Part shown: piece by piece, positions 707 through 5,758 of the stretch
How positions within the stretch are numbered: the stretch's first letter is position 1
Layout of the letters: every line of letters starts with the position of its first letter
Source of the DNA: Oscillibacter sp.
Lineage (GTDB): Bacteria > Bacillota > Clostridia > Oscillospirales > Oscillospiraceae
Reading direction: 5' to 3'
Assembly (NCBI GenBank): GCA_017446225.1
Contig: JAFSRH010000061.1
Location: 1-37,658 of the forward strand
DNA length: 37,658 nucleotides
Notes under the pieces: model-generated
What the model was told of the DNA's origin: nothing
Seen by the model: only the letters and a program-made list of their open reading frames with translations
Databases searched by the model: none
Translations under genes and position numbers: made by a program

Positions 707-2008
707 TTACAACTGAAGCGGAACACTTTCGGAAGTGATTTGTAACCGGTCACCCATGCCTTCTTTGTCCCAGTTGGTCAGAATCCGGCGCTGTACAATG
801 TCAATGTCGTCCGGCTGGATTTCCAGCAGGAGCACCAGATACTGGTTGGCGCCGTTTTTGGTATAGACATCGCTCCGGCGCAGATTCCGGCCCAGAATTT
901 CCCCGAAACGGTCTATGGTCTCCGCGTCCCCGTTGAGCGTGTAGAGGACCAGTTCCATTTTCCGGTGGTAGTTCTCAATGGTCCGGACCAGAAAGCGGTA
1001 AATGATCCGGAAATTCTCAAAGCCGAGCGCGTACGCGCCCCGCTGACGGTTGCGCTCCCCCAAAATCATGCGGATTCCCTCCATGGTATGGGAACCGCCG
1101 TCCGGCTTCCGCTCGGACAGAAACCGCTCCCGGAACACGGCGTAGCCGTGTCTGCCGTTCTGTTTGACCTGATAGAGCGCCTTGTCGGCCTTTTCGGACA
1201 GCGTCTGAAAATCGGTCCCTTCGTCCGGGGCCATGACCGCCCCAATGGACGCGCCCAGCGGGATATTCATATCCGCGCCCATCAATTCTTTCGCCGCCTC
1301 CAACAGCATGGCGTTAATTTGGAGGGACTTCTGTTCAATCAGGGCCTCATCGCGCACATCGCGGCAAAAAACGATAAATTCATCCCCGCCGACACGCCCG
1401 GCCACGTCGGAAGTACGGATAATGCAACGCAGGATTTCCCCGAAGCGGATCAGGACCTTGTCGCCCATGGCATGGCCGTAAAGGTCATTGACCAGTTTAA
1501 AACTGTCAAGGTCAATCATCATCAGGACGCCGGTTTCTTTCGCGCAGACGTCCGAGAGGGTTTTCTGGACAAAGGTTTTGTTCAAAAGGCCGGTCATGGG
1601 GTCGGTTTCCAGCACCGTGCGCAGACCGCGGATTTGTTCGGCGTTTTCGATCTGCCTCATGGCGTTGTCAACGCGCCGGAGCAGGACTTCCGGCTTGAAG
1701 GGTTTGCGGATATAGTCAATCGCGCCGGCCTCCAGTCCGCGGCTCTCGTTCTCCTCGCGCTCATCGGACGTGATGAACACAAAAGGCACGACCCGTTGGT
1801 ACTGGTCCTGAAGGGTCCTTTGGAGTTCCAAACCGGTCATATCCGGCATGTAGAGGTCGGACAAAATCAAATCGGGCCGTTCTTCCTCGTAAATGCGGAC
1901 AGCTTCCTGTCCGGAAGAGGCGCAAAGAATCTGATATTTCACAGAGAGCGCTCTGCTGGTAACTTTCCGCATGAATGTCGCGTCATCGACAATCAATATT
2001 TTTTTCAT
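707..2008 (-). CDS. Response regulator with GGDEF and a second degenerate GGDEF domain (diguanylate cyclase)
   Basis: A 433-residue cytoplasmic protein. Residues 1-120 form a receiver domain with the acidic pair D8/D9, phospho-acceptor D51 (ILSDLYMP) and K102 (KPF). Residues 130-295 form a canonical GGDEF domain (GGDEF at 207-211), which makes c-di-GMP from GTP, with an RTSD product-inhibition site (198-201) five residues before it. Residues 325-430 look like a second GGDEF fold in which the active motif is replaced by GANQY (386-390), while an RRSD (377-380) stays at the inhibition-site position. The ATG at 2008 is chosen over one 60 nt upstream because it has a GGGAGGTG site and starts exactly at the receiver domain (MKKILIVDD). 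It is divergent from the permease-kinase fusion, a plausible phosphodonor. Confidence 0.93.
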   Translation of the reverse strand: MKKILIVDDATFMRKVTSRALSVKYQILCASSGQEAVRIYEEERPDLILSDLYMPDMTGLELQRTLQDQYQRVVPFVFITSDEREENESRGLEAGAIDYIRKPFKPEVLLRRVDNAMRQIENAEQIRGLRTVLETDPMTGLLNKTFVQKTLSDVCAKETGVLMMIDLDSFKLVNDLYGHAMGDKVLIRFGEILRCIIRTSDVAGRVGGDEFIVFCRDVRDEALIEQKSLQINAMLLEAAKELMGADMNIPLGASIGAVMAPDEGTDFQTLSEKADKALYQVKQNGRHGYAVFRERFLSERKPDGGSHTMEGIRMILGERNRQRGAYALGFENFRIIYRFLVRTIENYHRKMELVLYTLNGDAETIDRFGEILGRNLRRSDVYTKNGANQYLVLLLEIQPDDIDIVQRRILTNWDKEGMGDRLQITSESVPLQL

Positions 2009-2058
2009 TCCGGCACCTCCCGGGAGCGCTGTCCGCTCCCATCCGCGATACATTTGAT

Positions 2059-2087
2059 AATATACCATTCCGGGGGGCGTTTCGCAA
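2059..2087 (-). promoter_or_regulatory. Sigma-A-type promoter for the receiver-GGDEF/prsW operon
   Basis: Minus-strand TTGCGA (2087-2082), a 17-bp spacer, and TATATT (2064-2059). It lies about 50 nt upstream of the chosen ATG. Predicted from sequence only. Confidence 0.55.
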
Positions 2088-2240
2088 GACTGTTTTTGTG
2101 TTTCTTGTACAAAAATTTTCCTTCCGGCCGCCGCTTAATGCGGAAACTCCCGTAAAAAGTTTCGGATTATGGAGAAAATTACATAAAACTGCGGAAAATA
2201 AGCCAGAAAAATTCGTCCGCCCTCCCCCTGAAATTTTTAC

Positions 2241-2269
2241 TTGTTTTTCGCTTTCATATATGATATGAT
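2241..2269 (+). promoter_or_regulatory. Sigma-A-type promoter for the permease-kinase fusion
   Basis: TTGTTT (2241-2246), a 17-bp spacer, and TATGAT (2264-2269). A second overlapping TATGAT lies at 2259-2264. The predicted leader is about 75 nt. The 343-nt divergent region (2009-2351) holds this promoter and the leftward one; no other gene or riboswitch was recognised in it. The region is markedly AT-richer than the flanking genes. Confidence 0.6.
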
Positions 2270-2351: not shown

Positions 2352-5297
2352 GTGGACGCTTCCAAATACACGCCAGCCGGAGAGGACAAGGAACGTCTGC
2401 CCCGTTACCTGTCCCCGTTCCATGTTTGGGCGCTTTCGTTCGGGTGCGCGGTCGGATGGGGCGCGTTTGTCATGCCCGGGACCACGTTCCTTCCGATTGC
2501 CGGACCGCTCGGGACCGCCCTCGGTATGCTCATCGGCGGCGTTGTCATGCTCATTATCGGCGTCAACTACCACTACCTGATGAACCGCTACCCGGACGCC
2601 GGCGGCACGTTTGCCTATGTCAAGCATACCTTTGGCTATGACCACGGGTTTTTGAGCGCGTGGTTTCTGATACTGGTCTACATCGCCATCACGTGGGCGA
2701 ACGCCACGGCCCTGCCGCTGGTGTTCCGGAATCTGCTGGGCGATACGTTTAAAGTAGGCTTTCATTATCAGATTGCCGGGTATGACATCTATTTCGGGGA
2801 GGCTATGCTGTCTCTTGCGGCGCTGGAAGTGTTCGGCTTTGCGGCGATTCGCGGCGGCAAGGTCTCGGCGCGGATCCAGACGGTCGCGGCCTGTATCATG
2901 GTCTGCGGCCTTCTCGTGGGCGGCGGCGCGCTCATCGTCCGCCACGCCGACTGTTTCGCCAGAGGAAGTCTCGCGCATTTCAGGCCCGCCTTCGCTCCGG
3001 GACATCACGCCTTTGCGGAGGTGTTTAACGTGGTGGCGCTGGCTCCGTGGGCGTTTGTGGGCTTTGAGTCGGTGTCGCACGCAACGGAGGAGTTTAAATT
3101 TTCCACGAAAAAGTCGTTTCTCATCCTGTTTGCCGCCGTGCTGACGGGCATTTTCGCGTACGTCACCCTCGCGGAACTGGCCGCTTCCGTCCTGCCAACG
3201 GGTTACAGCCATTGGGACACTTACATTCGCGATATTGACAAGCTCAGCGGCCTGAAAGGCCTGCCTGTGTTCTACGCCGTCCACGCGCTCTTGGGCAATA
3301 CGGGCCTGCTCGTTCTGGGCGTCACGATTGTGGCGGCGGTCATTACCGGCCTTGTGGGAAACTCCCTCGCGGCCAGCCGCCTGATTTACGCCATGGCAAG
3401 GGACAACCTGCTCCCCAAATGGTTCGGCAAGCTCAACAACGCGAAAGCCCCCGAAAACGCGATTCTGTTCATTATGGCCATTTCCACCCCGATTCCCTTC
3501 TTTGGCCGGACCGCGATCGGCTGGATTGTGGACGTAAACACCATCGGCGCCACCATCGCCTACGCGTATACGTCCGCGGTCGCCTATAAGGTCGCAAAGG
3601 ACAACGAGCATCTCGGCGTACAGGTCACGGGTATGCTCGGACTTGTCTCGTCTTTTCTGTTCTTCCTGTACTTCCTTGTACCGAACTTCTGGTCTGTCAG
3701 TGCCCTGACTACGGAATCGTACCTCATTCTGGTGGCGTGGAGCGTGCTCGGCTTCCTGTTCTTCCGCTACGTATTCCAGCGCGATACCCGGCAACGCTTC
3801 GGGAAGTCGACCGTGGTCTGGATTACGCTGATGTTCCTGATCCTCTTCATTTCTACGCTCTGGGTCCGGGAGGCCACACAGGACACTACGCAAATCGTGT
3901 TAAACAATCTCAGCGATTACAACTATCAGGAGCTGGGCGAACACGGCGTTTCCCTCTCGCCTGTCGAACAGCAGGATACCGCTTACTACATCGAAAGCCA
4001 GATGGAGCACGTCAGCAACGCCCTGTTGAAGAACAGTATGGCGCAAATGGCCCTGATTATGTTCTCCCTCTACATCATGTTCAACCTGTACACCCTCATG
4101 CAGAAGCGCGAGCGGGACATGGAAGTGCAGAAGGTACAGGCCGAACAGAGCAACCGCGCGAAGAGCACCTTTCTGTCCAACATGAGCCACGACATCCGGA
4201 CGCCCATGAACGCGATCATAGGCTATACCACGCTTTCACAGAAAGAGGCCGGAATCCCGCCGCGCGTGTCGGACTACCTGAAAAAAATTGACGCTTCCAG
4301 CCGCCACTTACTCGCCCTCATCAATGACGTTTTGGAAATGAGCCGCATTGAAAGCGGGAAAATGGAGCTGGAACCGGAAAAATGTGACCTTGTCAAGGGC
4401 TTGGAGGAGGTCCGGGACCTGTTTACAACCCAGATGGAGACCAAACGCCTGACGTACGCCGTCACCGCGGACGGGGTCACAAACAGAACGGTCCTCTGCG
4501 ACATGAACCGCCTGAACCGCGTCCTGTTGAACCTCATCAGCAACGCCTACAAGTTCACGCCGGAGCGCGGGAGCGTCAGCGTGACGCTGATCCAGACCGG
4601 CGCGGCGGACGGCATCGCCTCTTACGAACTGCGCGTGAAAGATACCGGCATGGGCATGAGTCCGGAGTTCGCCGCGCACGTTTTCGAGGCCTACGAGCGC
4701 GAACGTACGAAAGCCGTGGAACACATTCAGGGTACCGGGCTGGGCATGGCCATCACAAAAAGCATCGTGGACCTGATGAACGGTACGATTGAAGTGGAAA
4801 CGGAACAGGGCAAGGGTACGGAATTTATTATCCGCGTCTCGTTCCCGATTGTGGAGGAGGAACAGGAGGCGGACGCGCAAAACGCCGCCGATACAATGCC
4901 GGATATTGATTTCAGCAAGTTCAGGCTCCTGTTGGTCGAGGATAACGAAATCAACCGCGAAATCGCCACTATTTTACTGGAAGAGGCGGGTTTTCAGTTG
5001 GACACCGCCGAAAACGGGAAAATCGCCGTGGAGAAAATCGCCGCGTCCCGTCCCGGGGACTACCAACTGGTCCTGATGGATATCCAAATGCCGGTCATGA
5101 ACGGTTATGAGGCTGCAAAGGCAATCCGCGCTCTGAATAATCCGGACCTTGCGAACGTCCCCATTGTGGCCATGACCGCCAACGCGTTTTCGGAAGACAT
5201 TCAGGCCGCCAAGGAAGCCGGTATGAACAGTCACATCGCCAAACCGATTGACGTCTCCAAGATGATGGAGACTTTAGCGGAAATTCTGCGCGGATAA
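2352..5297 (+). CDS. APC-type permease fused to hybrid histidine kinase and receiver domain
   Basis: A 981-residue membrane protein. Residues 15-475 are an APC-superfamily amino acid/polyamine-type permease with about 12 hydrophobic segments; the first contains GWGAFVMPGT, the unwound TM1 substrate site of this fold. A further TM (about 482-500), a roughly 65-residue loop rich in D, Q and E, and another TM (about 565-585) lead into the kinase. The HisKA domain has phospho-acceptor H613 (SHDIRTP), followed by HATPase with N731 (N box), DTGMGMS and GTGLGM. A C-terminal receiver (about 860-980) has D910 and K964. No Hpt domain, PAS or HAMP is seen, so the permease or the loop is the likely sensor. 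The GTG start at 2352 has TAAGGA nine bases upstream. The transported or sensed ligand cannot be named from sequence. It is comparable in logic to CbrA-type transporter-kinases but with a different transporter family. Confidence 0.93.
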   Translation: MDASKYTPAGEDKERLPRYLSPFHVWALSFGCAVGWGAFVMPGTTFLPIAGPLGTALGMLIGGVVMLIIGVNYHYLMNRYPDAGGTFAYVKHTFGYDHGFLSAWFLILVYIAITWANATALPLVFRNLLGDTFKVGFHYQIAGYDIYFGEAMLSLAALEVFGFAAIRGGKVSARIQTVAACIMVCGLLVGGGALIVRHADCFARGSLAHFRPAFAPGHHAFAEVFNVVALAPWAFVGFESVSHATEEFKFSTKKSFLILFAAVLTGIFAYVTLAELAASVLPTGYSHWDTYIRDIDKLSGLKGLPVFYAVHALLGNTGLLVLGVTIVAAVITGLVGNSLAASRLIYAMARDNLLPKWFGKLNNAKAPENAILFIMAISTPIPFFGRTAIGWIVDVNTIGATIAYAYTSAVAYKVAKDNEHLGVQVTGMLGLVSSFLFFLYFLVPNFWSVSALTTESYLILVAWSVLGFLFFRYVFQRDTRQRFGKSTVVWITLMFLILFISTLWVREATQDTTQIVLNNLSDYNYQELGEHGVSLSPVEQQDTAYYIESQMEHVSNALLKNSMAQMALIMFSLYIMFNLYTLMQKRERDMEVQKVQAEQSNRAKSTFLSNMSHDIRTPMNAIIGYTTLSQKEAGIPPRVSDYLKKIDASSRHLLALINDVLEMSRIESGKMELEPEKCDLVKGLEEVRDLFTTQMETKRLTYAVTADGVTNRTVLCDMNRLNRVLLNLISNAYKFTPERGSVSVTLIQTGAADGIASYELRVKDTGMGMSPEFAAHVFEAYERERTKAVEHIQGTGLGMAITKSIVDLMNGTIEVETEQGKGTEFIIRVSFPIVEEEQEADAQNAADTMPDIDFSKFRLLLVEDNEINREIATILLEEAGFQLDTAENGKIAVEKIAASRPGDYQLVLMDIQMPVMNGYEAAKAIRALNNPDLANVPIVAMTANAFSEDIQAAKEAGMNSHIAKPIDVSKMMETLAEILRG

Positions 5298-5320: not shown

Positions 5321-5716
5321 ATGAAAGGTGTCTGGACAAAGACCGTCCTTGTGGCGGGCGTGCTGATATCGCTGGTCGCGGTCTGCCTCATGTTCGGGAG
5401 CGGACAGCGTTACAAGTCCCTCACACAGGCGGAGGCCATGAAGGTGATGGAAAACAGTGACTGCCTGATTGTGGACGTCCGCACACAGGCCGAATATGAC
5501 GGCGGCCACATCCCGGGCGCGGTCTGCGTGCCCGTGGACGATATCCGCCAAGGAAAGCTGGACGCCCTGCCCGACAGACATCAGGTGCTGTTGATTTACT
5601 GCTATGCCGGACGGCGCGCCGTGGACGCCGCGAAACTGCTTACGTCCATGGGCTATACGAACACGTACGAGTTCGGCGGAATCGTGGACTGGACCGGAGA
5701 AGTCGTCGCCGACTGA
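5321..5716 (+). CDS. Membrane-anchored single-domain rhodanese
   Basis: A 131-residue protein with one N-terminal hydrophobic segment (about 7-26), then a rhodanese domain with DVRTQAEYDGGHIPGA (52-67) and the active-site loop CYAGRRA starting at C94. Rhodanese domains carry sulfur as a cysteine persulfide; the acceptor is unknown, and with this topology the domain is probably outside the membrane. An in-frame GTG at 5309 is possible, but the ATG at 5321 is preferred because AAGGTGGG lies about eight bases before it. It starts 23 nt after the permease-kinase gene and ends before a strong terminator, so the two probably form one unit; whether their functions are linked is unknown. Confidence 0.88.
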   Translation: MKGVWTKTVLVAGVLISLVAVCLMFGSGQRYKSLTQAEAMKVMENSDCLIVDVRTQAEYDGGHIPGAVCVPVDDIRQGKLDALPDRHQVLLIYCYAGRRAVDAAKLLTSMGYTNTYEFGGIVDWTGEVVAD

Positions 5717-5730
5717 ACAGGAAAACGGAA

Positions 5731-5758
5731 GCCGTACCCCGAAAAGGGTACGGCTTTT
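5731..5758 (+). terminator. Intrinsic terminator after the rhodanese gene
   Basis: Perfect 9-bp stem (GCCGTACCC at 5731-5739 with GGGTACGGC at 5746-5754), 6-nt loop, then TTTT. It closes the permease-kinase/rhodanese unit. Confidence 0.9.

Follow-up and report, generated by a model that had tools for sequence, protein, structure and literature searches.

A permease–histidine kinase fusion in Oscillibacter sp. as a probable transporter-derived receptor kinase

The locus and the fusion protein

The window analysed here, a stretch of 37,658 nucleotides from Oscillibacter sp. (contig JAFSRH010000061.1), carries at positions 2352..5297 of the + strand an uninterrupted open reading frame of 981 residues, with GTG start and TAA stop, that joins an APC-type permease to a hybrid histidine kinase. 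An in-frame TAA lies just 5' of the start (2337-2339), and GTG 2352 is thus the first possible start. An earlier note, made from the sequence alone, had described this single frame together with its domains, and both the reading frame and the Pfam matches over cut-off bear this out. The features of the fusion are as follows, where transmembrane (TM) helices of the permease core are counted as TM1-12 by analogy with AdiC.

2352..5297, + strand: APC permease, TM hairpin, HisKA, HATPase_c and receiver fusion (open reading frame and Pfam)
2406..3791, + strand: APC-fold permease core, residues 19-480
2454..2462, + strand: TM1 G35-W36-G37, predicted unwound substrate-binding segment (alignment; W36 invariant in 47/47 rows)
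3045..3071, + strand: predicted TM6 substrate segment P232-W-A-F-V-G-F-E-S240 (alignment, GkApcT equivalents)
3810..4157, + strand: TM13, outer loop, TM14 and coil hairpin, residues 487-602 (structure model)
4158..4358, + strand: HisKA with H613, codon 4188-4190 (Pfam, alignment)
4500..4844, + strand: HATPase_c with N731 (Pfam, alignment)
4929..5276, + strand: receiver with D910, codon 5079-5081 (Pfam, alignment)

The Pfam matches over cut-off comprise AA_permease_2 (PF13520; residues 20-447, E 1.4e-28, 100.4 bits against a curated cut-off of 27, covering profile positions 1-405 of 427), AA_permease (24-466), HisKA (603-669, E 2.6e-19), HATPase_c (717-831, E 3.5e-24) and Response_reg (860-975, E 2.9e-24). 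Across the membrane part (residues 20-466) AA_permease families are the sole matches at E<=0.001, with no SLC5/SSS and no Amt/Rh match, in agreement with the earlier statement that the transporter family is not that of CbrA. A HisKA with its His, a HATPase_c with its N box and a receiver with its Asp make the C-terminal part a hybrid histidine kinase. H613, N731 and D910 were found where the earlier note had placed them and are conserved in relatives: H613 in 46 of 47 alignment rows, N731 in all 47, and D910 in all 34 rows that reach that position (of the other 13, 12 are trimmed short and one, L082, has no receiver). Likewise, no PAS, HAMP or Cache domain is matched in the fusion protein at E<=0.001, although the same Pfam library does detect PAS in other proteins. 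Residues 467-602 have no Pfam match (the presence of the STAC model in the library was not confirmed); the structure model has a TM hairpin there, and the extra TM-loop-TM unit of the earlier description is real and follows residue 487.

The same domain order was looked for in other genomes, using 58 loci (L numbers) from other, named assemblies, all coding for proteins related to residues 1-583. A single frame spans both permease and kinase in 50 of these loci, including L086, which is broken further upstream; of the remaining eight, six end inside the permease at the edge of the locus and two (L060 and L092) have no joint frame. Isolates that carry the fusion include E. ruminantium FB3002 and Lachnospiraceae AC2031, NE2001 and LC2019.

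The permease core and its substrate site

The AlphaFold2 model adopts the APC fold, a 5+5 inverted repeat with broken TM1 and TM6, and a structure search with this model returned APC carriers throughout the matches listed, giving little information on the other parts. Structure prediction and family search of residues 1-480, both suggested in the earlier note, thus lead to the APC fold and the AA_permease families, and the APC TM1 motif is present as the G-W-G form of GxG. Conservation (1 minus scaled entropy, 47 rows) is 0.71 over the permease, rises to 0.88 in the TM1 region and reaches 0.81 in HisKA. The substrate segments of TM1 (G35-W36-G37) and TM6 (P232-WAFVGFE239) are both present, and a further alignment, A2, whose 18 rows comprise kinase forms, cyclase forms and one stand-alone permease, shows no variation at G35-W36-G37, P232, A234, G237 and F238.

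The carriers GkApcT, AdiC, CAT1/CAT4 and y+LAT1 have the fold and the GxG and TM6 backbone binding segments in common with the fusion, but are stand-alone proteins, and the middle residue of GxG is T, S or A in GkApcT, AdiC and CAT1, where the fusion has Trp. Read from the alignment, Thr43 of GkApcT TM1 corresponds to W36, Phe231 and Asp237 of TM6 to W233 and E239, Lys191 of TM5 to M183, and Glu115 of TM3 to V109; Lys191, Glu115 and Thr43 are hence replaced by Met, Val and Trp. As reported for GkApcT (PMC5803215), the substrate carboxylate is held by TM1 backbone amides, with Thr43 and Phe231 forming the outer gate, so that a Trp at the x of GxG need not abolish binding; Lys191 mutants still bound ligand and lost transport, except for a weak Asn variant.

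Stand-alone permeases of the same subfamily (e.g. L024, L121-L126, L129-L134), 32-47% identical to the window's permease, share with it the G[W/F]G of TM1 and have no TM5 Lys, yet, unlike the fusion, possess neither hairpin nor kinase. Their TM6 mostly reads GFDxIPQ, as opposed to GFExxS[HN] in the fusions, and most have a Pro in TM3 where fusions have Trp115. The fusion-specific residues are W for P at 115 (TM3), E for D at 239 and S for P at 242 (TM6), and N for F at 337 (TM8), the helix labels being our own assignment. Since these stand-alone kin lack both the TM5 Lys and the TM3 Glu, the absence of the two residues is no mark of a receptor, and we rejected the notion that loss of the TM5 Lys equals loss of transport. 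With the TM1 and TM6 segments kept, and the Lys also absent from stand-alone kin, the substrate site does not appear, as far as sequences tell, to have been visibly lost on fusion; such a loss in homologues, raised in the earlier note, is not visible in the alignments. In L082 (2337-4934) a T stands in place of the kinase His, and W233 and E239 of TM6 are gone, apparently a joint change of sensor site and kinase.

One membrane module on several outputs

Permease and hairpin recur as a module not only in front of a histidine kinase (HK) with one receiver (REC), but also on HK-REC-REC, HK alone (L082), GGDEF and GGDEF-REC-GGDEF-EAL outputs, as assigned by Pfam on 8 representatives and by local profiles on the rest; these profiles gave no hairpin match in L023 and L099. 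In L054 and L055 an HK-REC-REC fusion is followed in tandem by a GGDEF-REC-GGDEF-EAL fusion, and L096 adds to the same tandem a third, GGDEF, form. The GGDEF motif is intact in nine of the ten cyclase forms of alignment A2 and disrupted in L098. L187 represents a further GGDEF lineage, which the tree separates, although a single GGDEF clade is not rejected (approximately unbiased test, p 0.158).

In a tree of 89 permease domains, from which 11 fragments or duplicates were left out, a single branch splits 76 fused from 13 stand-alone sequences (SH-aLRT 99), and this split recurs with a support of 100 in a second, 88-row set and of 100/99 in a careful 32-row tree. Among the fused sequences, that of the window falls together with L038 and eight members of another family (support 99, 88-row set), which suggests transfer between families. 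With relatives placing this membrane domain in front of other signalling outputs, the permease part is most likely a plug-in nutrient sensor. A broader reading, to which we would give somewhat less than even odds, takes APC permease and TM hairpin as an all-purpose input module, used by Bacillota and perhaps certain other gut bacteria and swapped among hybrid kinases, diguanylate cyclases and cyclase/phosphodiesterases. One nutrient signal would, in certain operons like that of L096, enter a phosphorelay and cyclic di-GMP (c-di-GMP) signalling together via two to three paralogous receptors, and in the window's clade the module, with a membrane-anchored rhodanese, would read a sulfur-containing amino acid.

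Two arrangements of paralogous fusions were also observed. L096 (4336-16490) holds an operon-like run of three permease fusions behind HPt and REC-GGDEF-EAL genes. L135, L136 and L188 hold tandem pairs of permease-kinase fusions without receiver, which possibly form heterodimers; when one protein of the L135 pair and one of the L136 pair were run against Pfam, HisKA proved weak or missing, and HATPase stayed below cut-off in the latter. The L188 pair was assigned by local profiles only.

Proposed mechanism and comparison with known transporter-kinases

We propose, with a probability of about 0.6, that the protein is a transporter-derived receptor kinase, i.e. a transceptor-type sensor, and predict that a ligand controls its output. 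The usual TM1/TM6 site of the APC permease domain would take up a small amine or amino acid as ligand, and the ensuing change of state would shift the hairpin of TM13 and TM14. As the last hairpin helix continues into the first helix of DHp, this shift would alter autophosphorylation at H613. Phosphate would then pass from H613 to D910 and be relayed by an HPt protein to a response regulator distinct from the fusion. This membrane module is exchangeable, having been placed in evolution on kinase, cyclase and cyclase/phosphodiesterase outputs, and in the window's clade it would act with a membrane-anchored rhodanese, with a sulfur-containing or omega-amino acid as the most likely ligand. In this scheme, ligand binding, the direction of regulation, hairpin coupling, the phosphate route and the ligand class are predicted, and the architecture, conservation, module swapping and gene neighbours are observed. 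In the AlphaFold2 model, helix 537-631 runs continuously from the hairpin into HisKA; in a second structure model, of a GGDEF form, the GGDEF part is of low confidence.

Several observations weigh against the protein being such a receptor kinase. Neither the TM1 Trp nor TM6 A234 is constant among the other stand-alone kin, where F or further residues occur. As for the residues reported to matter for transport in GkApcT, the fusions have L/M/F/T in place of the TM5 Lys and T/V/A in place of the TM3 Glu. L082, which lacks the phospho-acceptor His, also lacks the W and E of TM6. Neither HPt nor c-di-GMP genes occur in the examined flanks of the fusion loci nearest the window (L183-L186, L191-L194), and the aminotransferase family found beside the stand-alone permeases of L140 and L142 gave no match over cut-off in the genome of the window. 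Finally, the CbrA kinase is reported to work without its SLC5 domain (PMC7096432), which means that fusion to a kinase does not by itself make a transporter the sensor.

This last point leads to the alternative that permease and kinase are both active and largely independent, as an ordinary carrier and a kinase that reads another cue, which we consider unlikely though far from negligible. In CbrA, the kinase domain is reported not to be needed for uptake, nor the SLC5 domain to be essential for the kinase (PMC7096432); in the fusion, carrier fold and motifs are intact, and it could be a needed carrier, since it is the only AA_permease_2 protein detected in its own genome, where no others were found. 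However, no PAS or other cytosolic sensor is detected here, unlike in CbrA, and the occurrence of the same permease and hairpin on several outputs is the pattern of an input domain.

A receptor kinase of this kind resembles CbrA, CrbS and RpuS in carrying a multi-helix nutrient carrier N-terminal to a histidine kinase, hybrid in some of them; these proteins possess an SLC5/SSS carrier with cytosolic STAC and PAS linkers, whereas the fusion has AA_permease_2, a TM hairpin and no detected PAS. CbrA is described as transporting histidine (PMC7096432, PMC13022988, PMC9100948). Ks-Amt5 of Kuenenia is likewise a carrier recruited as a sensory domain without HAMP and is reported to bind, not translocate, NH4+ ions; yet its Amt domain responds to ammonium, it is coupled via loop 5 and a C-terminal linker and not via a TM hairpin, and, unlike for the APC module, the portion of the paper available mentions no cyclase form (PMC5764959). 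Among the matches listed from the open-access literature we found no APC-kinase or APC-GGDEF fusion, most subscription papers lying outside the scope of that search, and the permease-kinase fusion is apparently a real, widespread and undescribed form of transceptor kinase.

For the question whether fused carriers sense occupancy or flux, which concerns even CbrA, the present family supplies many natural variants, in which the same permease sits on different outputs, the loop is shortened or, in one protein, both the kinase His and residues of the TM6 site are gone. Stand-alone permeases of the subfamily serve as controls, and the swapping of outputs makes the family directly testable with simple reporters. 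If true, the proposed mechanism would provide Clostridia of rumen and gut with a nutrient-dependent entry into phosphorelay and c-di-GMP signalling, one that is absent among the literature matches listed.

The hairpin and its outer loop

The earlier note had left the choice of sensor between the permease and the loop between residues about 500 and 565. Only the permease part of this statement stood: its core is conserved and the module occurs on several outputs, while the loop is poorly conserved and shrinks to 27 residues. TM13 has a conservation of 0.74, and the outer loop one of 0.39, the lowest in the membrane module if the N-terminal tail is disregarded, with lengths ranging from 27 to 60 residues. 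Since the core is conserved and the loop is not, the permease is the likely sensor. We accordingly disfavoured the loop, of which about half is missing in four of 47 rows, those with 27 residues. That the TM13-TM14 outer loop senses, with the permease as passenger or membrane anchor, seems improbable: its position would suit a periplasmic sensor loop, and a gene for a membrane-anchored rhodanese lies next door in the window's clade, but its conservation is about half the 0.71 of the permease, its length is not maintained, and it is modelled as just two extended helices, not as a binding domain.

The adjacent rhodanese gene and the ligand

Directly 3' of the fusion, just beyond the frame described in the earlier note, lies a gene for a predicted membrane-anchored rhodanese. 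It starts 23 nt from the fusion's stop codon, and both are likely part of the same operon. The following features flank the fusion on its own strand.

2236..2264, + strand: promoter-like hexamers TTTACT-17-TATGAT, 5' of the fusion (consensus match only)
5321..5716, + strand: rhodanese with N-terminal hydrophobic segment (PF00581, active-site CYAGRR, Pfam E 7.3e-18; GTG 5309 is an alternative start)
5729..5756, + strand: 12-pair hairpin followed by T-rich sequence, 3' of the rhodanese gene, candidate terminator

The hairpin may close a two-gene transcription unit; the scan lists it on the - strand, and terminator-like matches in the region are not above those in shuffles. No upstream RNA element (T-box, riboswitch) reached the gathering score of a family in the 9 sources scanned.

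A rhodanese gene adjoins the fusion in eight of the ten members of the window's clade, and one more (L193) has it at a distance of 1.6 kb. The adjacent genes are those of L183, L184, L185 (two copies), L186, L191, L192 and L194, besides the window's own; in L038 no rhodanese was found, and L084 and L010, outside the clade, also have one beside the fusion. Overall, 9 of 72 fusion loci, against none of 34 other kinase loci, have a rhodanese gene on the same strand within 2 kb downstream. Not counted here are the window, which nearly duplicates a shorter locus, and L010, whose flank is short; both have a rhodanese. This association would also fit a protein that senses rhodanese-linked redox or sulfur chemistry, e.g. 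the envelope persulfide or thiosulfate state, instead of an amino acid. We hold this to be very improbable, as no rhodanese was found in 63 of the 72 fusion loci and several stand-alone kin adjoin amino-acid catabolic genes.

For the receptor kinase, an amino acid or amine is a reasonable ligand, judged by family and fold. Seven contexts of stand-alone permeases were examined for more specific clues, and five gave hints, with none from L100 and L141. L139 has a sulfoacetaldehyde acetyltransferase gene with aminotransferase and CoA transferase genes; L140 an aminotransferase and an alanine dehydrogenase gene, and L142 an aminotransferase and a methylmalonate-semialdehyde dehydrogenase (MMSDH) gene, in each case beside the permease; L138 an MMSDH-like gene just below its cut-off; and L143 a YeeE-type sulfur transport gene, an alanine dehydrogenase gene and, under cut-off, one for a CoA-disulfide-reductase-like rhodanese protein. 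The genes beside these five permeases presumably fit taurine or beta-alanine breakdown. Since these neighbours and the rhodanese point that way, we tentatively suggest a sulfur-containing or omega-amino acid as ligand, a guess more likely to fail than to hold. In L139 (2750-9706), two stand-alone subfamily permeases lie between the sulfoacetaldehyde acetyltransferase and aminotransferase genes and are candidate taurine carriers.

Neighbouring c-di-GMP and HPt genes

One further gene lies upstream of the fusion and is transcribed divergently.

707..2068, - strand: REC-GGDEF response regulator, candidate output partner, not conserved (Pfam, neighbour comparison)

We rejected it as a conserved partner: no GGDEF, EAL or HPt gene occurs in the examined flanks of L183-L186 and L188-L195, nor in those of the same-family loci L105, L107, L108 and L109. 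In other clades, the association of fusions with c-di-GMP genes holds. The HK-REC-REC clade and its kin have a recurrent gene order of HK-REC, REC-GGDEF-EAL and HPt, then the fusion, and the HPt tested from this set is a Pfam Hpt protein. Within 6 kb, 40 of 69 fusion loci have a c-di-GMP gene and 35 of 69 an HPt gene; these counts exclude L183-L196, which would lower the fusion figure, as well as the duplicate L106, and fragments are kept in the 69. Among loci with at least 6 kb of flank, a c-di-GMP gene is found in 32 of 50 fusions against 6 of 33 other hybrid kinases (0/15 in the window's family and 6/18 in genomes holding other fusion loci; 5/32 once L165, itself a cut fusion, is removed), and HPt in 22 of 50 against 2 of 33. 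The Fisher p-values of 4e-5 and 1.5e-4 for these neighbour comparisons overstate independence, because of relatedness among the loci. As controls we selected 16 regions around other kinase matches and 20 regions from a 33-row list, of which 8 rows are fusions and one match beside a fusion and a few others were left out.

The receiver of the fusion could relay through an HPt protein of its own genome, since another contig holds HK-REC-REC, REC-GGDEF-EAL and HPt genes. On that contig (C14, locus L144) the three stand in the order otherwise seen upstream of a fusion, without a permease fusion. A GGDEF protein of more than 1100 residues is encoded downstream of the fusion in L057, L059, L066, L067, L074, L077, L080, L091 and L094; that of L057 also has SBP_bac_3 domains (Pfam), another amino-acid-type input into c-di-GMP.

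Reality and distribution of the fusion

That two separate genes were joined by frameshift or assembly error, a possibility raised in the earlier note, is ruled out for all practical purposes, for although breaks or frameshifts occur in a small number of relatives (L060, L086, L092), the frame is uninterrupted here and joint in the 50 other loci and in more from wider genome searches. Rumen, deer, goat or sheep are named in 19 of the 58 record titles, and another 27 records carry RUG or RUI codes or the species name ruminantium; we take the RUG code to denote rumen genomes.

In the window's family, the fused form was detected in 15 of 200 genomes and the stand-alone form only in one more (E<=1e-100); two genomes of the same genus had no match to the query at this threshold. 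In another family of the phylum, the permease module was matched in 69 of 151 genomes (E<=1e-50), with identities up to 66% and mostly within frames of about 800-1060 residues. A sample of the order gave matches in 16 of 295 genomes, and one of the phylum in 10 of 398 (E<=1e-50), three of which, besides the window's, have frames of more than 800 residues.

Individual loci of this set offer some further observations. E. ruminantium ATCC 17233 retains a 155-residue permease remnant (L092, 5986-6450) before a downstream GGDEF gene, whereas strain FB3002 (L067) has the full fusion. Fusions close to the Clostridia forms occur on contigs binned as Flexilinea or Chloroflexi (L056, L068, L089), which may reflect transfer or misbinning. 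The genome of L080 contains a second permease-kinase fusion (L165, 3-2645, + strand), truncated by the contig start.

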